Made by a program: the position numbers and the translations under genes. A stretch of 64,000 nucleotides of DNA from Rubellimicrobium arenae (lineage in GTDB: Bacteria > Pseudomonadota > Alphaproteobacteria > Rhodobacterales > Rhodobacteraceae), in the NCBI RefSeq assembly GCF_017916275.1, contig NZ_JAFMST010000007.1, positions 186,001 to 250,000 of the forward strand. The letters run 5' to 3'. How positions within the stretch are numbered: the stretch's first letter is position 1; the number at the start of each line of letters is the position of its first letter. The notes beneath the pieces were generated by a model. It was not told where the DNA came from and ran no database searches. It saw only the letters and a program-made list of their open reading frames with translations. Shown in pieces: positions 5,106-52,347 of this stretch.

Positions 5106-6112
5106 CTACTCGGCCGCCTGCATCATGGGCGTGGGCTCGTTCCAGTAGTGGCAGGTCGCCCGCTGGCCGGGGGCCACGTCGTAGGGCGGCGGCGGCACCT
5201 CGGCGCATTTCGGCTTGGCCTTGGGGCAGCGGGTGCGGAACACGCAGCCCGAGGGGGGCGACAGCGGCGACGGCAGGTCCCCCTCCAGCACCGGGCGAGG
5301 CCGCGCCTTCTCGAGCGCCGGGTCGGGGATCGGCACCGAGGAGATCAGGAACTGCGTGTAGGGGTGGCGCGGCCGCTCGACCAGCTGGCGGGCGGGCGCG
5401 GTCTCCATCAGGCGGCCCAGGTACATGACCATGATCCGGTCCGAGATGTGGCGCACGACGGAAAGGTCGTGGGCGATGAAGACCATGGCGATGCCCATCT
5501 CGCGGCGCAGCTCGCGCAGGAGGTTCACCACCTGCGCCTGCACCGACACATCGAGCGCCGAGACCGGCTCGTCGCAGATCAGCAGCTTGGGGTTCAGGAT
5601 CAGCGCCCGCGCGATGCCGATGCGCTGGCACTGCCCGCCCGAGAACTCGTGCGGGTAGCGGTTCACGAGGTTGGGGAGGAGGCCCACCCGCTCCATCAGG
5701 TCCCGCACCCGCTGGCGGACCTCGGCGCGCGGCGTTTTGGGAAAGTGTGTCGTCAGCGGCTCGGCGATGATGTCCCCGACCGTCATGCGCGGGTTCAGCG
5801 CCGCGAGCGGGTCCTGGAAGATCATCTGCACGTCGCGCCGGTGCGCCCGCCGCTCCTCGGCCGACAGGGCGCCGATGTCGCGCCCGTCGAACAGGATGCG
5901 CCCCGTGGACGGAACGGTCCCCACGATCGCCCGGGCCAGCGTGGACTTGCCCGAGCCGCTTTCGCCCACCACGCCCAGCACCTCGCCGGGCGACAGGTCG
6001 AAGGAGATGCCCCCCACGGCCTGCAGCTTGCGGGGCGGGGTCCAGGGCCAGCCGCCCCGGACGGGAACGTCGAAGGTGACGCGGAGGTCGCTCACCTGGA
6101 GGATCGGGGCGC

Positions 6113-6116: not shown

Positions 6117-7105
<989 letters not shown>

Positions 7106-7106
7106 G

Positions 7107-8027
7107 TCAGCGGTCCTTCGGGTCGATGGCGTCGCGCAGCCCGTCGCCCACGAAGAAGAAGGCGAACAGCATCACGACGAAGAAGAAGAGCGGGAACCCA
7201 AGCTGCCAGGGCACCCCGTTCCCGATCTGCCCCGCCCCGCGCGAGATGAGCGCGCCCAGCGAGGTGTTGGGCTCCTGGACGCCCAGGCCCAGGAAGCTGA
7301 TGAAGGATTCGTAGATGATCATCTCGGGGATCAGCAGCGTGGCATAGACGATCACCACGCCCAGCAGGTTGGGGACGACGTGGCGCAGGATGATCGTCAG
7401 GGGCCGGACGCCGGTGGCGATGGCGGCCTCCACGAACTCCTTGTTCTTGATGGACAGCGTCTGCCCGCGGGCGATCCGGGCCATGGACAGCCAGGAGATG
7501 AGGCCGATCCCGATGAACAGCATCAGCAGCGACCGCCCGAACATCACGAGCATCAGGATCAGCACGAACATGAAGGGGATGGACAGGAGGATGTCCACGA
7601 CCCGCATCATGACGCTGTCCACCCGGCCCCCGAAGTAGCCCGAGATCGCGCCGTAGAGCGTGCCCACGATCACCGCCACCATCGAGCCCACGACTCCGAT
7701 GAGGAGCGACAGCCGCGTGCCCTGCACGGTGCGGGCGAACAGGTCCCGCCCCTCCTGGTCGGTGCCGAAGTAATGGCCGGTGGCGATCGACGGCACGCCC
7801 TTGGTGGCGTTGATGCCGATCAGGGAAAAGTCGACGTAGTCCCGCTCGTACTGGGCGATGAACCCGCCCAGGAAGGCGAAGACCGCGATCAGGACCAGCG
7901 CGACCAGGGCGACCGTCGCCGCCCTGTTGCGGAAGAAGCGCCGGCGCGCGTCGGTCCAGAGCGACCGGCCCTTGTCGGGCCGGGCCGGAGCCTGGAGGGC
8001 GTCGGCGGTGGGGTCGTGGAACGCCAT
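7107..8027 (-). CDS. oppC: Peptide ABC transporter permease, OppC type
   Basis: A 306-residue inner-membrane permease. A cytoplasmic N-terminus (about 35 residues) precedes the first membrane span (AATVALVALVLIAVFAFLGG); the BPD_transp_1 core has FGTDQEGRDLFARTVQGTR, characteristic of OppC/DppC, and the EAA coupling loop EAAIATGVRPLTIILRHVVPN. It pairs with the OppB homologue 13 bases upstream to form the channel. Confidence 0.9.
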   Translation of the reverse strand: MAFHDPTADALQAPARPDKGRSLWTDARRRFFRNRAATVALVALVLIAVFAFLGGFIAQYERDYVDFSLIGINATKGVPSIATGHYFGTDQEGRDLFARTVQGTRLSLLIGVVGSMVAVIVGTLYGAISGYFGGRVDSVMMRVVDILLSIPFMFVLILMLVMFGRSLLMLFIGIGLISWLSMARIARGQTLSIKNKEFVEAAIATGVRPLTIILRHVVPNLLGVVIVYATLLIPEMIIYESFISFLGLGVQEPNTSLGALISRGAGQIGNGVPWQLGFPLFFFVVMLFAFFFVGDGLRDAIDPKDR

Positions 8028-8040
8028 GTCGGGCCCCCCT

Positions 8041-8964
8041 TCAAAGACGGATCTTGGGGTCGATCCACGCGTAGAGGATGTCGACCACGAGGTTGAACAG
8101 GATGGTGAGCACGCCCACGAGGATCGTGACCCCCATGATGACCGAGTAGTCGCGGTTCAGCGCCGAGTTCACGAAGTACTGGCCGATCCCACCCGTGGAG
8201 AAGAACACGTCGATCACCACCGACCCGGTGATCATCGCCACGAAGGCGGGACCAAGGTAGCTCAGCACCGGCAGCATCGCGGGCTTGAGCGCGTGGCGCA
8301 GGATGATGCGCGACATCGGCAGGCCCTTGGCGCGGGCGGTGCGGATGAAGTTCGAGTTCATCACCTCCAGCATCGAGGACCGGGTGATCCGCGCGATGGC
8401 GGCCAGGTAGGTCGTGGCGAGGGCGATCACCGGCAGCACCACGTACTGCCACTGGCCGCCGTTCCAGCCGCCGCCCGGCAGCCAGCCGAGCCAGAGCGTG
8501 AACACGAGCACCAGGATCGGCGCCAGCACGAAGTTCGGCAGCACCGAGGCCCCGATGGCCGATCCGGTGGCGAGGTAGTCGAGCCAGGTGTTGTGCCGGA
8601 TCGCCGCCAGCACCCCCAGGGCCACGCCCACCACCACGGCCACCAGGAAGGCCCAGAAGCCGTAGGTCAGCGTGACCGGGAAACCCTGGGCGATCAGCCC
8701 CGTCACGGTCTGGTCGCGGTACTTGAAGGACGGCCCGAAGTCGAAATGGGCGACGATGTTCCAGACGTAGTTGAAGATCTGGACGACGTAGGGCTGGTCG
8801 AGCCCGTAGCGGGACTCGATGTTCGCCATGACGGCGGCGGGCAGCGGCTTCTCGCTGTTGAAGGGCCCGCCGGGCGCCGCGAACATCAGGATGAAGCTGA
8901 TGACGATCAGGATGAGGATCGTCGGAACGGCCACCAGGAGGCGGCGCAGGATGAAGCTGAGCAT
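8041..8964 (-). CDS. oppB: Peptide ABC transporter permease, OppB type
   Basis: A 307-residue inner-membrane permease with the usual OppB N-terminus (MLSFILRRLLVAVPTILILI) and RYGLDQPYVVQ, followed by the permease core with the coupling-loop region FIRTARAKGLPMSRIILRHA. About six membrane spans are visible. It is the second gene of the operon after the binding protein, separated from it by 95 bases containing a strong hairpin. Confidence 0.9.
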   Translation of the reverse strand: MLSFILRRLLVAVPTILILIVISFILMFAAPGGPFNSEKPLPAAVMANIESRYGLDQPYVVQIFNYVWNIVAHFDFGPSFKYRDQTVTGLIAQGFPVTLTYGFWAFLVAVVVGVALGVLAAIRHNTWLDYLATGSAIGASVLPNFVLAPILVLVFTLWLGWLPGGGWNGGQWQYVVLPVIALATTYLAAIARITRSSMLEVMNSNFIRTARAKGLPMSRIILRHALKPAMLPVLSYLGPAFVAMITGSVVIDVFFSTGGIGQYFVNSALNRDYSVIMGVTILVGVLTILFNLVVDILYAWIDPKIRL

Positions 8965-9010
8965 AGGGGAATCCTCGGCACCCGGAACGCAACACGCGCG
9001 AAATGCCTGT

Positions 9011-9040
9011 GGGTCCGCCCTCCTAAGGGAAGGCGGACCC
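9011..9040 (-). other. Intercistronic hairpin between oppA and oppB
   Basis: A perfect 9-bp inverted repeat (GGGTCCGCC at 9011-9019, GGCGGACCC at 9032-9040) with a 12-base loop, just past the oppA stop on the minus strand and before oppB. It lacks a T-run. Stable hairpins in this position are known in binding-protein transporter operons to protect the upstream message, giving more binding protein than permease; that role here is inferred. Confidence 0.6.
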
Positions 9041-9059
9041 CAAGGCCATCAGGAGCCGA

Positions 9060-10688
9060 TCACTCCTGCGCGACCCGGTACATGTCCTTGGCGTACCAGT
9101 TCTCCTGGGCGTTCTCGACGGCGTAGCCCTTGATCGAGTCGTCCATGATGAAGTCCGAGGAATAGAAGTAGATGGGCAGGAGCGGCACATCCCGCGCCAG
9201 CATCTCCTCGGCCTCTTGGTAGATGGGGAGCGGGTCCTCGGCGGTGCGGGACTGCTCCATCAGGGCGTCGTACTCGTCGCTGAAGTACTTGGAGTCGTTC
9301 GAATCCGAGTTCGACGTGAAGACGTCGAGGAAGCTCGACGCCTCGTTGTAGTCGGCGCACCATCCCGCGCGGGCAAGCTGGTAGTCCGCCTGCTTGCGGG
9401 CGTCGAGGAAGGTCTGCCACTCCTGGTTGGCCAGCGTGGTGTCGATCCCCAGCGTCTGCTTCCACATCTGGGACACGGCGACGGCGACCTGCTGGTGCGC
9501 CTGGTCGGTGTTGTAAAGGATCTCGAGCGTGAGCGGCTCGCCGTCCGTGCCGTAGCCGGCCTCGGCCATCAGCTCCTGGGCGCGGGCGTTGCGCTCCTCC
9601 TGGGTCATGGCGGCGGCGGGCACCTCGGGCACCTCCCAGCCGGCCGTGGCCTCGTGGGTCAGCGTGTAGGCCGCGGTCTGCCCGCCGGCCAGCACGTTGT
9701 TCACCAGGATGTCCCGGTCGATGGCCAGCGACAGCGCCTCGCGGACCCGCTGGTCCTTGAGCGCCTCGGGCGCGGCGTCGGTCATGTTGACGTGGTAGAA
9801 GTAGGTGCAAAGGTTCGGCACCGCGATCGCCTCGGTCGGGTACTCCTCCTTGAGGCGGGGGTATTGCCCGATCGGGATGTCGGTCTGGTCCATCTCCCCG
9901 GCGAGGTAGCGGGTCAGCGCCTGCTGCTCGTCGTTGATGATGAGAGCGGTGACCGTGTCGATGATGACGTTCTGCGCGTCCCAGTAGTTCGGGTTCTTGG
10001 TCATCACGATGCGCTCCTGCGGGACGCGCTCGCTCAGGACATAGGCCCCGTTGCCGACCATGTTGCCGGGCTGGGTCCACTGGTTGCCGAACTCCTCGAT
10101 CACCTTCTGCGGCACGGGGAAGGTGGTGGTGTGGGTCACCATCTGCGGGAAGTACGGGATGGGCGAGTCGATCCTGACCTCGAGCGTGTGGTCGTCGACG
10201 GCGCGCACGCCCAGCTGGTCGCTGGGCATCTCGCCCGCGATGACCGGCCCGGCGTTCGCCACCTTCATCAGCTCGATGTACCAGGCGTAGGGCGAGGCCA
10301 GCGCCGGATCGGCGGCGCGGCGCCAGGCGTAGACGAAGTCGTTCGCGGTGACCGGGTCGCCGTTCGACCACTTGGCCTCGGGGCGGAGCTTGAAGGTCCA
10401 GGTGGTGCCGTCCTCGCTCGCGGTCCATTCGGTGGCGACGCCGGGGACGACGTTGCCCTGCGCGTCCTGGCTCAGCAGCCCCTCGAACAGCTGCCGCGCC
10501 ACGTGCGAGCCTTCGACGTCCTCGATCAGGCCGGGGTCGATCGACGGGAACTCGTCGAGAACCCGGTAGGTGAAGGTCTGGTTGTCCGACAGCGTCTCGC
10601 CCGGCTGGGGCGTGGCGGCGTGGACGAGGGTGCCGGTCGCGACCATCGCCAGAAGCGAGGTCGCGCCGATGAGGGTACGGACTGTCAT
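9060..10688 (-). CDS. oppA: Peptide ABC transporter periplasmic substrate-binding protein (SBP_bac_5)
   Basis: A 542-residue secreted binding protein that captures peptides for OppBCDF. ATG at 10688 is chosen over a longer frame because it starts a signal peptide (TVRTLIGATSLLAMVATGTLVHA) and has GGGAG about 7 bases upstream. Family features include the DPGLIEDVEGSHVARQLFEGL segment, WTFKLRPEAKWSNGDPVTANDFVYAWRR-type text in the first lobe and a C-terminal YDALMEQSRTA region. Length matches OppA/MppA proteins. It is the first gene of the operon; a 224-base gap separates it from the divergent hemerythrin-like gene, where its promoter should lie. Confidence 0.9.
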   Translation of the reverse strand: MTVRTLIGATSLLAMVATGTLVHAATPQPGETLSDNQTFTYRVLDEFPSIDPGLIEDVEGSHVARQLFEGLLSQDAQGNVVPGVATEWTASEDGTTWTFKLRPEAKWSNGDPVTANDFVYAWRRAADPALASPYAWYIELMKVANAGPVIAGEMPSDQLGVRAVDDHTLEVRIDSPIPYFPQMVTHTTTFPVPQKVIEEFGNQWTQPGNMVGNGAYVLSERVPQERIVMTKNPNYWDAQNVIIDTVTALIINDEQQALTRYLAGEMDQTDIPIGQYPRLKEEYPTEAIAVPNLCTYFYHVNMTDAAPEALKDQRVREALSLAIDRDILVNNVLAGGQTAAYTLTHEATAGWEVPEVPAAAMTQEERNARAQELMAEAGYGTDGEPLTLEILYNTDQAHQQVAVAVSQMWKQTLGIDTTLANQEWQTFLDARKQADYQLARAGWCADYNEASSFLDVFTSNSDSNDSKYFSDEYDALMEQSRTAEDPLPIYQEAEEMLARDVPLLPIYFYSSDFIMDDSIKGYAVENAQENWYAKDMYRVAQE

Positions 10689-10912
10689 GTCGTATCTCCC
10701 TGGCATTGTGCGGGGGCCTTGGGGCTCCTTCCGCGGGTTGGGACGCGTCTGCCCCCCTGCCCGGGGGCGAAACTGCGCGAATCCTTTCGGGGGCGCCTGT
10801 CCGTTGGCAAGGGGAAAGCCCCTTCGGCCCCATGTAACCTCACGACACAATTCCGACACGATCCGTCCGTCCCGGCTGGCCTCGCGCCCCCCGGGGGCCT
10901 AGAACGCCCTCC

Positions 10913-11479
10913 ATGGACCACCCGCTCGAAACACGGACCGGCCTGCCCGACGCGCTGCGCGTCCTGCTGGCCGACCACCCCCGCGACGGCTGGGCGCGCG
11001 ACCCCAACTTCGCCGGCCTCGTGGAGATGTGGCTCGACCGGCACCTGCTGTTCCGGCGGCTGATGGCGGCCATGCGGGCCGACGCCGAATCCGTGCTGGA
11101 CGGCCGCATGGACCCCCGGGCCTGGGGCGGGCGCACCTCCCGGCTGGGCGGCCACTTCGTCGGCGACCTCCATGGGCACCACAGGGTGGAGGACGACCAC
11201 TACTTCCCCCTGCTCGTGACCCGCGACCCCCGGCTGGAGCAGGGCTTCGCGATCCTCGACCGCGACCACCACGCGCTCGACGGCCACCTGAACGCCTTCG
11301 TGGAGGAGGCGAACGGCGCGCTGCGGGTCCTCGACGCCCCGGGCTTCGCGACCGGGGCGGGACGCTTCCACGCCGGCCTGATCCGGCTGGAGCGTTTCCT
11401 CGACCGGCACCTGACCGACGAGGAGGAGCTGATCGTCCCCGTCATCCTGCGCGACGGCCCCGATGCGGTGGGCGGCTGA
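10913..11479 (+). CDS. Hemerythrin-like (HHE) domain protein
   Basis: A 188-residue cytoplasmic helical protein. Candidate di-iron ligands are visible as HGHHRVEDDHYFP (about residue 85), DRDHHALDGH (about 121) and HLTDEEELIVP near the C-terminus, in the spacing of HHE cation-binding proteins. Such proteins bind oxygen, nitric oxide or iron, or sense them; the substrate cannot be told from sequence. It is divergent from oppA and lies just upstream of the LysR regulator of the formate dehydrogenase operon with a 31-base gap. No strong Shine-Dalgarno precedes the ATG. Confidence 0.8.
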   Translation: MDHPLETRTGLPDALRVLLADHPRDGWARDPNFAGLVEMWLDRHLLFRRLMAAMRADAESVLDGRMDPRAWGGRTSRLGGHFVGDLHGHHRVEDDHYFPLLVTRDPRLEQGFAILDRDHHALDGHLNAFVEEANGALRVLDAPGFATGAGRFHAGLIRLERFLDRHLTDEEELIVPVILRDGPDAVGG

Positions 11480-11510
11480 CGCGGACGCGGCGCTGCGCTA
11501 GCCTGCCCCG

Positions 11511-12389
11511 ATGATCGACAAGCTCGAGATGTTCATCGCGCTCGCCCAGGCGCGGCACTTCGGCCGCGCGGCGGAGTCCGTGGGGGTGGCCCAGCCCTCC
11601 CTGTCCGCCGCCATCCGGCAGCTCGAGGAGCAGCTGGGCGTCATGCTGGTCCGCCGCGGCTCCCGCTTCGGCGGCCTCACGCCCGAAGGGGAGCGGGTGC
11701 TGGACTGGGCCAAGAGGATCGTGGCCGACGCCCGCGCCATGCGCGAGGAGCTGCGGGTCGGCCGCGCGGGCCTGTCGGGCAGCCTGCGCCTCGCGGTGAT
11801 CCCCACGGCGCTGGCCGCCGCCTCGCGCCTGACCGCCGCCTTTGCCGAGGCGCATCCCGAGGTCCGCATCACCATTCTCTCCGCCACCTCCATCGCCATC
11901 CTGGAGGATCTCGACGGGCTCAGGATCGACGCGGGGATCAGCTACCTCGACAACGAGCCCCTGGGCACCAAGGCCACGGTGCCGCTCTACGAGGAACGCT
12001 ACGCGCTGGTGGTGCGCGACGACCATGTCCTGGCCGGGCGGGAGTCGGCCGCCTGGGCCGAGACCGAGGGGCTGGCGCTCTGCCTGCTCACGCCCGACAT
12101 GCAGAACCGGCGCATCGTGTCCGGCCTCCTGGCCGAGGCGGGGGTCGCCGTCGCCCCCCGGATCGAGACGAATTCGACCATCGTGCTGATCGGCCATGTC
12201 CTGGCGGGCGGCTGGGCCACCATCCTGCCCCTCGTCACCGCCGAGATATTCCTCGAACATGGGCCGCTCCGCGCCGTGCCGCTCGCCGATCCCGACACCC
12301 GGCACCGGGTCGGCCTGATCGCCCCCGCGCGCGAGCCGCAGATGCCGCTGGTAGCCGCGCTGCTCGCCGAGGCGAAGAGGATGGCTTGA
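11511..12389 (+). CDS. LysR-family regulator, probable regulator of the formate dehydrogenase operon
   Basis: A 292-residue LysR regulator with an N-terminal winged helix-turn-helix (residues about 5-62, HFGRAAESVGVAQPSLSAAI) and a periplasmic-binding-like effector domain. It lies codirectionally just before fdsG, the position held by LysR-type fds regulators in other proteobacteria. A dyad with the LysR T-N11-A pattern starts two bases before the end of its coding sequence, suggesting control of the downstream operon. The inducer (formate or a related C1 compound) is inference. Confidence 0.88.
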   Translation: MIDKLEMFIALAQARHFGRAAESVGVAQPSLSAAIRQLEEQLGVMLVRRGSRFGGLTPEGERVLDWAKRIVADARAMREELRVGRAGLSGSLRLAVIPTALAAASRLTAAFAEAHPEVRITILSATSIAILEDLDGLRIDAGISYLDNEPLGTKATVPLYEERYALVVRDDHVLAGRESAAWAETEGLALCLLTPDMQNRRIVSGLLAEAGVAVAPRIETNSTIVLIGHVLAGGWATILPLVTAEIFLEHGPLRAVPLADPDTRHRVGLIAPAREPQMPLVAALLAEAKRMA

Positions 12390-12404
12390 TAGGGATATCC
12401 TATC
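12388..12404 (+). promoter_or_regulatory. Candidate LysR-type operator (T-N11-A dyad)
   Basis: GATAGG at 12388-12393 and CCTATC at 12399-12404 form a 6-bp inverted repeat around GATAT, containing TAGGGATATCCTA, a T-N11-A LysR box. It overlaps the end of the LysR gene and lies about 75 bases before the fdsG start, a normal place for activator binding. Confidence 0.55.
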
Positions 12405-12451
12405 GACCGACGGAAGCTTGATCTTGATTCCAGGGGCAAACTTGGCCAGAT

Positions 12452-12473
12452 GGCTCCCAGCCAATCGGGAGCC
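12452..12473 (+). promoter_or_regulatory. Hairpin that pairs the fdsG Shine-Dalgarno
   Basis: GGCTCCC (12452-12458) and GGGAGCC (12467-12473) form a perfect 7-bp stem with an 8-base loop. The 3' arm contains the GGGAG Shine-Dalgarno of fdsG, whose ATG is at 12477. If folded in the message it would block ribosome entry. If translation starts instead at ATG 12450, the stem lies inside the first codons. Confidence 0.5.
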
Positions 12474-12476
12474 CCC

Positions 12477-12935
12477 ATGCTCGACACAGCCGACTTCTCC
12501 TCGCGCCTGAGCGAGATCATTGCCGCTCACCAGCTCCAGGAGGGGCCGCTCCTGCCGATCCTCCACGACGTGCAGGCCGAATGGGGCCACATCCCCGAGC
12601 CTGCGATCCCCGCGATCGCCCAGGCGCTGAACCTCGGCCGGGCCGAGGTGCATGGCGTCGTCACCTTCTACCACGACTTCCGCGCCACCCCGGCCGGGAC
12701 GACCGTGATCAAGGTCTGCGCCGCCGAAGCCTGCCAGGCCCAGGGCGGCCGCGACCTCGTGCAGGCGACGCTGCGGGCCTTCGGCCTGCGCGACTACGGG
12801 ACCACGCTCGACGGCAAGGTCACGGTCGAGCCGATCTATTGCCTGGGCCTTTGCGCCTGCGGCCCCGCCGCCCTGGTCGGCGACCGCCTGATCGGCCGCG
12901 CCACGGCCCAAAGCCTCAAGGACGCCGCGCAATGA
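12477..12935 (+). CDS. fdsG: NAD-dependent formate dehydrogenase gamma subunit (NuoE-like)
   Basis: A 152-residue [2Fe-2S] thioredoxin-like subunit that passes electrons within the soluble formate dehydrogenase. Cluster ligands are KVCAAEACQAQGG (C-x4-C) and YCLGLCACGPAA (C-x3-C), as in NuoE. ATG 12477 is preferred because GGGAG precedes it and it gives the usual LxxIxxxH-type start; ATG 12450 would add nine residues. Its stop overlaps the fdsB start as ATGA. First structural gene of the fds operon. Confidence 0.92.
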   Translation: MLDTADFSSRLSEIIAAHQLQEGPLLPILHDVQAEWGHIPEPAIPAIAQALNLGRAEVHGVVTFYHDFRATPAGTTVIKVCAAEACQAQGGRDLVQATLRAFGLRDYGTTLDGKVTVEPIYCLGLCACGPAALVGDRLIGRATAQSLKDAAQ

Positions 12936-47897: not shown

Positions 47898-47980
47898 TGC
47901 CTGCTCCCGCCTTGAGGGGCCCCAAGGTCCTGTGTAGCGTCGGTCGGGCAGGCCAACGCAAGCCGTTTCAGGGAGACATC

Positions 47981-48130
47981 ATGACAAAGTCCGGAACCAG
48001 CGCCCCCACCCAGGCACGCCGCCTCGTCGTGGATGCCAGCCGTCTCGTCGGCATCGAATCCGTCGGCGCGGACGGGGGACCGACGCCCGTCGCCGTCGGC
48101 GTGAAGCCCCCGCCGCCGCCGGTCCGCTGA
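47981..48130 (+). CDS. Candidate RiPP precursor peptide, 49 residues
   Basis: A short gene with GGGAGA seven bases before ATG. The N-terminal half (QARRLVVDASRLVGIESVGA) resembles a helical leader; then come ADGG and the C-terminal PTPVAVGVKPPPPPVR. A Gly-Gly followed by a short hydrophobic or proline-rich tail is the layout of leader and core in modified peptides. It lies 44 bases before a gene of the HExxH peptide-modifying family, the best evidence for its role. No acidic residue follows the Gly-Gly. Identity of the core and the modified residues is inference. Confidence 0.65.
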   Translation: MTKSGTSAPTQARRLVVDASRLVGIESVGADGGPTPVAVGVKPPPPPVR

Positions 48131-48174
48131 TCGCGGCCCCCCGGGCGGACATGAACAGGAAGGCGGAGGGCTTC

Positions 48175-49224
48175 ATGGAAACGATCCTGACGGTCGCGGG
48201 CACCGCGCCGATGCTGGAGGACCTTCCCTGGCTCACCGCCTTCCGTCCGGACGGCCAGCGCGGCCGCGAGGTGCAGCGGCGCGTGGCGGAAGCCCTTGCC
48301 GGCAGCCTGGACGAGGTCGTGGCGGGCGTCGCCCCCCACCGCAGCCTCCCCGCTCGGGTGACGGAGCTGGGCGACCGGCTCCGCAGCGCCGGGTCGGTCG
48401 ATCCGGTCGTCTCGGCCAGCTATTTCGCGCTCCTCGCCGCCGTGAAGGCCGATGACGTGGAGCAGGCGGCCGACCGGCTCCTAGCCCTGCCCGATCTTCT
48501 CGACGCGGGCCGGCCCGAGTTCCTTTCGGACTGGGGCGCCCTGGACCCCTCGGTCCGGCGGCTCTTTGCGGGCGCGCTGTCGCTCGACCCGACCACGGTG
48601 CTCGACCTCGCGGCGCCGGACGAGGACGCGGTGCAGGCCGCCCGGAGCAGCGCCCAAACGGCCCTCGCCGCCCTGGACATCGCCCTGCCGGCGCTCGCCG
48701 CCGAGGTGAAGGAGCTGCTGTCCCAGATCGTTCTGGTGGCGGGAACGGTGAACGGCGGCGGCCGCTTCGACGGCGCGACCAGCTTCCATGCCTGGGGCGC
48801 CCTTTTCCTCAACGCCGAGGAGCATGGGAGCCGGATCGACATGCTCGACGGGCTTGCCCACGAAAGCGGCCATGCCCTCCTTTACGGCCTGTCGCTGGGG
48901 CGGCCCTTCGTGCGCAATCCTCCCAGCGAACGTCACGCGTCGCCGTTGCGGCAGGATGCGCGACCGCTCGATGGCATCTTTCATGCCACCTACGTCTCGG
49001 CGCGGATGCATCTGGCGCACGCCCGGCTGCTGGCGGCCGGAGCCGAAGGACGACTGGACCTCCGCCCCGAGGAAGCCGATCAGGCGCGGGAGCACCTGAA
49101 CCAGAGCCGGACGGCCTTCTGGAACGGCTTGGGCGTCCTGGAACAGCACGCCCGACTGACCCCACTGGGCGCACGGCTGCTGGCCGGGACCCGGACCTAC
49201 ATGAAGGCCGCGACGGCCGGCTGA
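48175..49224 (+). CDS. HExxH-type peptide-modifying enzyme (mod_HExxH / aKG-HExxH peptide hydroxylase family)
   Basis: A 349-residue cytoplasmic protein. The second half has SFHAWGALFLN, then LAHESGHALLYGLSLG (HExxH at residues 229-233) and DARPLDGIFHATYVSARMHLAHARLL, matching the HExxH motif domain found in RiPP clusters, where DPRPLxGLLxGTY follows the HExxH. Members are described as iron and 2-oxoglutarate dependent peptide beta-hydroxylases, not proteases. ATG 48175 has GGAGGG six bases upstream; ATG 48151 would add eight residues but lacks a ribosome site. It follows the candidate precursor in the same direction. Confidence 0.82.
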   Translation: METILTVAGTAPMLEDLPWLTAFRPDGQRGREVQRRVAEALAGSLDEVVAGVAPHRSLPARVTELGDRLRSAGSVDPVVSASYFALLAAVKADDVEQAADRLLALPDLLDAGRPEFLSDWGALDPSVRRLFAGALSLDPTTVLDLAAPDEDAVQAARSSAQTALAALDIALPALAAEVKELLSQIVLVAGTVNGGGRFDGATSFHAWGALFLNAEEHGSRIDMLDGLAHESGHALLYGLSLGRPFVRNPPSERHASPLRQDARPLDGIFHATYVSARMHLAHARLLAAGAEGRLDLRPEEADQAREHLNQSRTAFWNGLGVLEQHARLTPLGARLLAGTRTYMKAATAG

Positions 49225-49289: not shown

Positions 49290-49556
49290 TCAGGACAGGA
49301 ACGGAGCCAGCAGGGCGTTGACCATCAGGACCCAGGTGGCCAGGCAAGCCAGCAGGACCGTCCCAAGCAGCAGCATCGGCGCCAGACCCGCCTCACAGCG
49401 CCCGAGAAGGTCGGCCTCGCTGATCGAGGGTGGCCCGGCCACCCGCTCCACCACCTGCACGGGTTCGAGATCAGGCTCGGCGACCAGCAGATCCTGAACC
49501 GGCCACATGCGCCGTTCGATGCGATCGCTCGCGATAGGGCTATACAATTGGTTCAT
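49290..49556 (-). CDS. Small single-span membrane protein, paralogue A
   Basis: An 88-residue protein with a soluble N-terminal half and one hydrophobic helix at about residues 58-86 ending in the C-terminal FLS. The segment SEADLLGRCEAGLAPMLLLG is nearly repeated in the protein at 50700-50951. Likely an inner-membrane protein with N-terminus in the cytoplasm. AAAGGA lies four bases before the start. Function unknown; convergent with the HExxH gene. Confidence 0.72.
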   Translation of the reverse strand: MNQLYSPIASDRIERRMWPVQDLLVAEPDLEPVQVVERVAGPPSISEADLLGRCEAGLAPMLLLGTVLLACLATWVLMVNALLAPFLS

Positions 49557-50699: not shown

Positions 50700-50951
50700 T
50701 CAGGAGAGGAAGAGGTTCACCACGGCCCTGACCAGGACGACCCACATGGCCAAGGCAGACAACATCGCCGCCCCCAGCAACAAAGCCGGCATCAGCCCGG
50801 CGTCGCAGGCGGCCAGGAGATCGGCCTCCGTCTGTTCGTCCGGTTCCGCATCCGCGTGATCGGCCGTGGATGCATGGTCCGGCCGCCTCCGGGACGACCA
50901 TGGGAACAGGTTCAACGGATTGCTCCCAAAGGCGCTCGATAGTTCGGTCAT
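50700..50951 (-). CDS. Small single-span membrane protein, paralogue B
   Basis: An 83-residue protein: a charged N-terminal half (SSRRRPDHASTADHADAEPD) and the C-terminal TEADLLAACDAGLMPALLLG followed by a hydrophobic helix ending FLS. Aligned with the protein at 49290-49556 it keeps EADLL, the Cys-acidic-AGL-x-P-x-LLLG core, A-x-WV and the final FLS. ATG 50951 follows AGAGGA, similar to paralogue A's upstream. A duplication of one gene around the AT-rich stretch is likely. Function unknown. Confidence 0.72.
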   Translation of the reverse strand: MTELSSAFGSNPLNLFPWSSRRRPDHASTADHADAEPDEQTEADLLAACDAGLMPALLLGAAMLSALAMWVVLVRAVVNLFLS

Positions 50952-51432
50952 GGTGTCCTCTGCGTCCTGACGGCCCAAGACGGGACCGCGTGCGGGCTCT
51001 GCAGTTCTTTGCAGGAATGTTGGGTCAAAATGGTTAATCCGAGGCAGTGGAAAGGCGTCTTGCAGCCATTGCCGCGACGGTTTTCCGCCGAACCGATCCA
51101 CACCGGGCGACCAAGGCCCGACGGATCCGGATGCCGAGGCCCCAGTCCGCCAAACTTATCCACCGCACCTGCCCACCAGGGGAATCAATCACATCGCACC
51201 ATGCACAAGGGCGGATTGCCGAACTTCGTCTGCGAGACTGATAAATCGAATGCGATTTAGTCGCAAGCGCTTGACGCAGGGCCGCGAATCTGGAAAAGGA
51301 CTCACGCGATTGCATCGAGAGCGATTGATATCTCGTGCAGCGCCCCGGCGGTGGTCCATCAAGACGAACCTGTTCGGGTGATCGGCCAAGCCGCTGCAGG
51401 GCGGCGCCGTGGGCACGTACAGGAGCAGATGA
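50952..51432. other. Intergenic control region upstream of the VPLPA-CTERM gene
   Basis: About 480 bases without a supported gene. It contains the divergent promoters of paralogue B and the VPLPA-CTERM gene, the palindrome at 51242-51259 and TTGACG at 51271-51276, a possible -35. Frames running through it have no domain. Confidence 0.45.
51242..51259 (+). promoter_or_regulatory. Operator-like palindrome (lux-box-like dyad)
   Basis: TAAATCG-AATG-CGATTTA is a perfect 7-bp dyad, with outer GAC/GTC adding partial symmetry. It lies 12 bases before a candidate -35 (TTGACG) and about 180 bases upstream of the VPLPA-CTERM start. Size and symmetry fit LuxR-type or similar dimeric activators; the regulator is not identified. 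Confidence 0.45.
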
Positions 51433-52347
51433 ATGGGACGCCTCGCAGTCACCGCCGCCGCCGCAGTCACCCTCGTCCTGGGGCTGGGCTCCGATCCGGC
51501 TGGCGCCGCGACCTGCGCCGCCGTCGGCCAGAGCTTCACGCTGACCACGTCCGCAGAAGCCACATGCTTTGCTGCGGCCGTGCCAGGGGTCGATGCGAAC
51601 ACCTCGGGCAACCCTGGTGGAGCGAGCCCGGACCCGATCTTTGCCCGTTACGGCGCGGGCCTGCAGCTTCTTGACAAGAGCGATGACGCCAGCAGCGGCC
51701 TGCGGCCCACCGCGCTGTCGGTCGCGAACGGAACGCTGGGTGGAACCTGGTCGATCGCCTCGCTCCTGCCCCCGGCCGGCAAGGTGTTCACGGACCTGAT
51801 CCTGGCCTTCAAGACCGGCGGCAACAGCAACACGATCTCGACCTGGGCGGCCTTCCTGCTGCCGCAAGGCGTGTCCTCGGGACGCTGGGCCACCACCGGC
51901 AAGAACGCCTTGTCGCACGTGACCCTCTACGCCCGACTGGCGGATGCGCCGGTCACGTTGAATGGCGGGCTGGCCTCGGCCGCCTCGGCTGGCTCCGCCG
52001 TTCCCGCCGGATCGACCACGACCAACCCGGGCCCGGTGGCCTCTCCGGCCAAGACCACGATCACGGCCGAGGCCCTGCCGACCAGCTCGGGCGCGCTGGT
52101 GGTCGAGGCCGCCCCGAGCCAGCCCCTTCCGTCGATGGGCTTTGGAACGTCGGGAAGCCTTGTGACCCCTGTCCTCTCGGATCTCTCGGGCAGCCCCATG
52201 GCAACGAGCGCGCCGATCCTGACTGCCGGCTCCGAGGCCGCGACCATTGCGCAGCCCTCGCCGGTCCCGCTTCCGGCCGGGAGCGTCCTGCTCCTTAGCG
52301 CCCTGGGCGGCTTGGGCCTGATGCGCCGGCGCAAGCCGGCCGCCTGA
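51433..52347 (+). CDS. VPLPA-CTERM sorting-domain surface protein
   Basis: A 304-residue exported protein. An N-terminal signal sequence (GRLAVTAAAAVTLVLGLG, SDPAGAA) is followed by a beta-rich ectodomain (CAAVGQSFTLTTSAEATC, VTLYARLADAPV), a Ser/Pro/Ala-rich linker and the C-terminal tripartite tail PSPVPLPAGSVLLLSALGGL with a basic RRRKPAA end. This is the VPLPA-CTERM signal, handled by exosortase-type enzymes in bacteria making exopolysaccharide. AGGAG seven bases before ATG. No exosortase is in the window. Confidence 0.87.
   Translation: MGRLAVTAAAAVTLVLGLGSDPAGAATCAAVGQSFTLTTSAEATCFAAAVPGVDANTSGNPGGASPDPIFARYGAGLQLLDKSDDASSGLRPTALSVANGTLGGTWSIASLLPPAGKVFTDLILAFKTGGNSNTISTWAAFLLPQGVSSGRWATTGKNALSHVTLYARLADAPVTLNGGLASAASAGSAVPAGSTTTNPGPVASPAKTTITAEALPTSSGALVVEAAPSQPLPSMGFGTSGSLVTPVLSDLSGSPMATSAPILTAGSEAATIAQPSPVPLPAGSVLLLSALGGLGLMRRRKPAA

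Follow-up and report, generated by a model that had tools for sequence, protein, structure and literature searches.

Enzymes of the aKG-HExxH type that act in RiPP biosynthesis (ChlB, PflC/PosC, BpmH, PesO) are encoded next to a small precursor gene. According to the available parts of PMC12636437 and PMC13060819, they act as hydroxylases of Asp, His, Gln, Phe or Pro; the partners named there comprise radical SAM, MNIO, nitroreductase, GNAT and asparagine-synthetase-like proteins. Members of the family also perform oxidative backbone cleavage, an additional activity of PflC/PosC (PMC12636437, available part). Graspetides with 2OG oxygenases, as described in the available part of PMC13097080, combine an ATP-grasp ligase, a small precursor and an oxygenase; the term HExxH is absent from the main text of that paper.

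In the 64,000-nucleotide stretch of Rubellimicrobium arenae DNA analysed here (the window), a gene for an HExxH protein (P0002) likewise adjoins a small precursor-like gene, but, compared with the aKG-HExxH enzymes as far as the cited sources are available, the locus differs in its ATP-grasp ligase partner (P0003) and in its leader family. We propose that the 49-aa peptide, the HExxH oxygenase and the ATP-grasp ligase probably form a RiPP locus of three parts (Table 1). Since this arrangement recurs in related bacteria, it is probably a machine for a modified peptide of an undescribed kind. The initial annotation had also proposed a RiPP locus here, as a reduced or new class of cluster with none of the usual partners visible; the enzyme and, with some likelihood, the peptide stand, while the supposed lack of a partner is contradicted by the divergent ATP-grasp gene 83 bp away, a recurrent neighbour. 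No description of an HExxH enzyme and an ATP-grasp ligase in one RiPP locus was found in the literature searched, a search based largely on listed matches and including few subscription papers; the two listed papers in which ATP-grasp, HEXXH and RiPP occur together concern a microviridin protease and cyanophycin synthetase.

Table 1. Features of the locus. Positions refer to the window, except those of L007, which refer to its own stretch.
Feature	Position	Strand	Basis or remark
ATP-grasp ligase by predicted fold (P0003), 424 aa	46623..47897	-	Foldseek, invariant residues, linkage to HExxH
Divergent intergenic region, 83 bp	47898..47980	.	between ATP-grasp and peptide genes
Precursor-like peptide, 49 aa	47981..48130	+	position, ribosome site, alignment to L007 precursor
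Putative aKG-HExxH-type peptide beta-hydroxylase (P0002), 349 aa	48175..49224	+	TIGR04267; model match 8s5f
L007 system	9233-10467 and 10497-12618	- and +	richest set for experiments

P0002 carries HESGH at residues 229-233 plus DARPLDGIFHATY, the pattern from which its family had been guessed, and its membership is borne out by the HMM comparison that the initial annotation had suggested, with 91.8 bits for the NCBIfam model TIGR04267 (mod_HExxH) against a cut-off of 40; Pfam yielded no family at E up to 1. GGAGG lies upstream of its start; the ATG found in frame at 48151 lacks a site of this kind. A profile of P0002 and 16 homologues finds the HExxH domain of ChlB (8s5f) in the PDB at E 4.9e-12, and the AlphaFold model of P0002 (mean pLDDT 90.9) has the same entry as its best structure match (E 2.3e-10, TM 0.67 by query length). 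P0002 has the NCBIfam domain in common with ChlB, PflC/PosC, BpmH and PesO and the fold in common with 8s5f, and both the HExxH and the downstream SPxR..RP..H stretch of 8s5f align with P0002. All 20 invariant columns of a 17-sequence alignment are kept in P0002, the HExxH histidines and glutamate included. Judged by its family, P0002 would be an iron/2-oxoglutarate peptide oxygenase, presumably a beta-hydroxylase. It is the sole HExxH protein that a TIGR04267 model scan finds in its own genome of 4.55 Mb.

The ATP-grasp gene starts with TTG and has GGGAG upstream. Its product has no match above a cut-off in Pfam or NCBIfam, and it is by predicted fold and by its Asp/Glu/Asn metal site a member of the ATP-grasp superfamily. 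A Foldseek search with the predicted model (pLDDT 86.1) gave the D-Ala-D-Ala ligase 3r5x as the best match (E 5.7e-11), together with RimK, LysX/ArgX and PruB, with identities of 11-17% in the fold matches listed; D243, E255, N257 and K200 are invariant in an alignment of 18 sequences. RimK and LysX/ArgX, which have the predicted fold and the metal/ATP residues in common with P0003, are ligases that attach amino acids to the carboxyl group of a protein. Position 176 is Arg in P0003 and Lys in all 17 others aligned; by eye, Arg also stands at the equivalent position of the relative L119. The ATP-grasp part occupies approximately residues 1-300 and is followed by a long predicted helix (312-400). 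Residues 312-424, which comprise this helix and a C-terminal SMSWRLTGPLR, are missing from the aligned HExxH-linked relatives.

The fold match PruB (9bou) is a graspetide-type ligase. Together with the pairing of an ATP-grasp ligase with a 2-oxoglutarate oxygenase known from graspetides (PMC13097080, available part), this match would fit a locus in which the ATP-grasp enzyme forms side-chain lactones or lactams, with the HExxH enzyme serving as a tailoring oxygenase. We regard this as highly unlikely, because neither Pfam nor NCBIfam gave the ligase a match to a graspetide-ligase model at E up to 1, and a conserved Asp/Glu acceptor is absent: the core in the window has a single acidic residue, and the cores of its relatives are Lys/Gly-rich, with Lys conserved and acidic residues not. 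The oxygenase, moreover, is of the HExxH type.

Of 390 order-level genomes searched, 18, its own among them, contain homologues of P0002, with 20 matches in all. With the matches in G136 and G417 omitted (short, with an internal stop) and a locus from a Rhodobacteraceae MAG (L005) added, there were 19 full-length HExxH loci including the window, counts that describe genome samples rather than all sequenced members of the order. An ATP-grasp gene is adjacent in nine of the 19 (the window, L005, L007 with two copies, and L027-L032) and is divergent in every case. These nine loci span four genera and one MAG of unknown genus, five of them coming from one genus. Another nine (L009 and L033-L040) carry the gene of an AMP-forming ligase together with a thioesterase-like gene, and none of the 19 has both ligase types within the stretches fetched (7-19 kb). 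The remaining locus, L008, has neither type adjacent, and the same genome holds the L007 cluster.

Several of these loci have peculiarities of their own. A fused adenylation/carrier/thioesterase protein (6767-9292, minus strand), whose ligase part was assigned by Pfam, is encoded beside the HExxH gene and the leader peptide in L034, and the separate thioesterase-like gene of L038 scores just below the Pfam cut-off. In L007, six precursors and two tandem ATP-grasp genes lie next to one HExxH gene. Directly 3' of the HExxH gene of L008 is an RTX-type calcium-binding repeat protein (10029-11819, plus strand; PF00353).

The divergent adjacency in nine of 19 loci, as well as the presence of duplicated ligase and precursor genes in L007, argues against the ATP-grasp enzyme being a neighbour with another role, e.g. 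in surface polysaccharide, with the HExxH enzyme alone modifying the peptide. Such a separation would agree with the C-terminal extension of P0003 that the linked relatives do not have, and with ATP-grasp relatives that stand apart from HExxH genes, next to methyltransferase, flippase-like (by eye) or adenylation-type genes; we consider it scarcely probable. P0003 clusters with the HExxH-linked ATP-grasps in a tree of 18 rows (support 95/93); when five rows from other families were added, the unlinked ATP-grasp L119 (genome G620) was also found near P0003. The ATP-grasp profile matched seven of 318 genomes of the class-wide sample, its own included, at E 1e-6. Around the non-HExxH ATP-grasp genes (L069-L077, L119-L123), no small leader-peptide ORF exceeded the matrix threshold, which was 13 in one scan and 11 in the other.

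Class-wide, P0002 was matched in six of 336 other genomes sampled, all from other families. The HExxH protein L085 of G620 came out as its sister (97/96), but L085 is a long branch and its place in the tree is therefore unsure. L085, the closest HExxH homologue found, is without this ATP-grasp next to it and adjoins a cyanophycin-synthetase-like ATP-grasp (263.5 bits, below the model cut-off of 877). A small ORF upstream of L085 with SDLIGFRS and AKVGK repeats was not counted, its alignment to the window peptide being at shuffle level. In L086, also from another family, a repetitive small ORF (9193-9486, plus strand) with LDTT(D/G)A(R/T)PQTGK repeats lies just 5' of the HExxH gene. A search of viral contigs found no relative, and one of plasmids found a single distant match, in Pantoea, at 28% coverage.

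The small ORFs beside the HExxH genes share a leader, (I/L)DxSKLLGF(R/K)(L/I), followed by Lys-Gly motifs such as LKMGGK and AKVGDP. Such precursor genes were detected at 15 of the other 18 full-length loci (the exceptions are L009, L035 and L037). A conserved small peptide beside the enzyme's homologues had been named in advance as a check, and, with this result and the HExxH model match, neither of the two outcomes that would have spoken against the initial annotation occurred. A leader matrix built without them picked up six precursors: three further ones in L007 and one each in L038, L039 and L040, of which the last two closely resemble each other. The L039 and L040 precursors were counted at 17.8 bits; matrix hits of 13-19 bits in L009, L027, L030, L031, L035, L039-L041, L071, L073 and L076 were not, since they lie in large frames, have no fitting start or stand in an unexpected place.

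When 380 genomes were searched at E 0.001 with a profile of 20 peptides, the window peptide among them, and the candidates scored were limited to 18 per genome, 20 hits were obtained in 14 genomes. All were located no more than 2.5 kb from an HExxH match, and each was a profile member or identical to one, so that no new members appeared, which speaks for the absence of such precursors elsewhere. A scan of ten genomes at E up to 1 gave two weak hits elsewhere (E 0.27 and 0.65). NCBIfam holds no model for the family as judged by a scan of 20 members, one of which matched FliH weakly (E 0.004); the Pfam comparison covered the window peptide alone.

The peptide gene of the window is well formed, as had been reported, with 49 codons, an ATG start and AGGGAG five bases upstream. 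Its putative leader ends in VVDASRLVGIES and is followed by the putative core VGADGGPTPVAVGVKPPPPPVR. The Gly-Gly pointed out earlier is present at residues 32-33, although it is not conserved there in the aligned relatives. The gap that separates the peptide gene from the ligase gene is presumably their shared promoter region; the corresponding gap measures 62-82 bp in five relatives, and a sigma-70-type consensus was sought in it (47898-47980) and not found.

We next consider how closely the window peptide resembles the precursor family. The alignment of RLVVDASRLVGIES...VAVGVKP with RLALDYSRLLGFRI...VKIGNKP of an L007 precursor, the most significant among 21 peptides tried, has a score of 44, which was reached by none of 1,000 and by seven of 40,000 shuffles; summed over the 21 peptides, the similarity exceeds that of all 1,000 shuffles. 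The window and the fetched stretches together yielded 4,660 ORFs of 35-120 aa, of which the best non-precursor scored 41 against the same L007 precursor. The score does not divide precursors from other ORFs cleanly, since the L039 and L040 precursors fall below 41 and the best 25 rows contain none of those from L033, L034, L036 and L038. In an alignment control with the 197 window ORFs of 40-110 aa, the peptide ORF ranked second. We take the top-ranked ORF (5425-5658) for a chance match, since it has only LGFRI in common with a precursor and lies, by eye, antisense to an ABC-ATPase-type ORF.

The window peptide was missed by a profile built from the 19 other precursors (E 23, rank 30) and also by an earlier one of 12 sequences (E 3.7, rank 3). 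With leave-one-out profiles, all but one of the 19 others reached E 3e-4 or better, often with near relatives of the tested peptide in the profile, and the window peptide is the one member entirely missed by a profile of the others. KxGxK, present in all 12 other ATP-grasp-linked peptides, is replaced by VAVGVK. The leader of the window peptide is matched weakly, at 5.1 bits (rank 45 among 68,496 window 12-mers), a value reached by 144 of 20,000 shuffles. As far as sequence comparison goes, the peptide would at best be a very divergent member of the family.

These misses, and the missing KxGxK, are what one would expect if the 49-codon ORF were a chance or decayed frame or the locus a remnant, with the HExxH protein acting on another peptide or on none. 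The same may be said of the absence of the enzyme from all seven other genomes of its genus and of a peptide exporter from the ten neighbouring ORFs scanned with Pfam (39.5-59.3 kb). The G+C by codon position of the peptide gene (0.74/0.64/0.84) is similar to that of neighbouring genes; an antisense ORF over it is patterned likewise (0.79/0.61/0.80), so this is weak evidence for coding. A chance ORF is nonetheless hard to reconcile with a ribosome site, spacing and gene order that match those in relatives, or with a pairwise similarity above shuffles and background ORFs, and a remnant with an enzyme that retains HExxH and the other family-wide residues. We consider this explanation unlikely.

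The three-part RiPP locus remains the preferred reading. Beyond gene order, families and predicted folds, the recurrence of the three parts and the replacement of the ATP-grasp by an AMP-forming ligase, all observed here, we infer the peptide as substrate, its leader as recognition part, the step order and all site chemistry. The 49-aa peptide would be translated and bound by the modifying enzymes at its N-terminal VVDASRLVGIES, the putative counterpart of the relatives' (I/L)DxSKLLGF(R/K) recognition leader. The HExxH protein would hydroxylate one or more residues of the Gly/Pro/Lys core, and the ATP-grasp enzyme would activate a carboxylate and join it to the peptide. The simplest ligation would place an amino acid or other acid on a core lysine (Lys42 here), and an alternative would attach an amine to the peptide C-terminus; that lysine in particular is the acceptor seems rather doubtful.

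The ATP-grasp and the AMP-forming ligase both come from families that activate a carboxylate with ATP, and the simplest common reading is thus oxidation plus acylation or aminoacylation of the core. Tentatively, and as something short of an even prospect, we suggest a new alphaproteobacterial RiPP class with an (I/L)DxSKLLGF(R/K) leader and Lys-Gly cores, in which an HExxH oxygenase and an interchangeable carboxylate-activating enzyme may hydroxylate and acylate or aminoacylate core lysines. The interchangeable partners in this tentative class would be the unclassified ATP-grasp family, the AMP-ligase with thioesterase, or the cyanophycin-synthetase-like ATP-grasp near L085. If true, the few known partners of HExxH oxygenases would be joined by a ligation enzyme, and a precursor family without an NCBIfam model would be gained as well. 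The interchange of two unrelated ATP-using enzymes beside the same kind of peptide and oxygenase is a natural experiment, which allows the chemistry to be tested directly using three-gene sets.

Nine of the ten neighbouring ORFs had a Pfam match, and the families include a sugar-type uptake ABC transporter, an enolase-like enzyme, a YgjP-like metallopeptidase, a GntR regulator, an alpha-amylase and a hydantoinase. Two small membrane-type proteins (49290-49556 and 50700-50954, both on the minus strand), for which Pfam gave no match, have similar C-termini by eye (EADLL..C.AGL.P.LLLG...) and are separated by approximately 1.1 kb without a clear gene (G+C 0.608). Further downstream, the product of 51433-52347 (plus strand) has a VPLPA-CTERM sorting domain, scoring 37.4 bits for TIGR03370, where the cut-off is 25.35.
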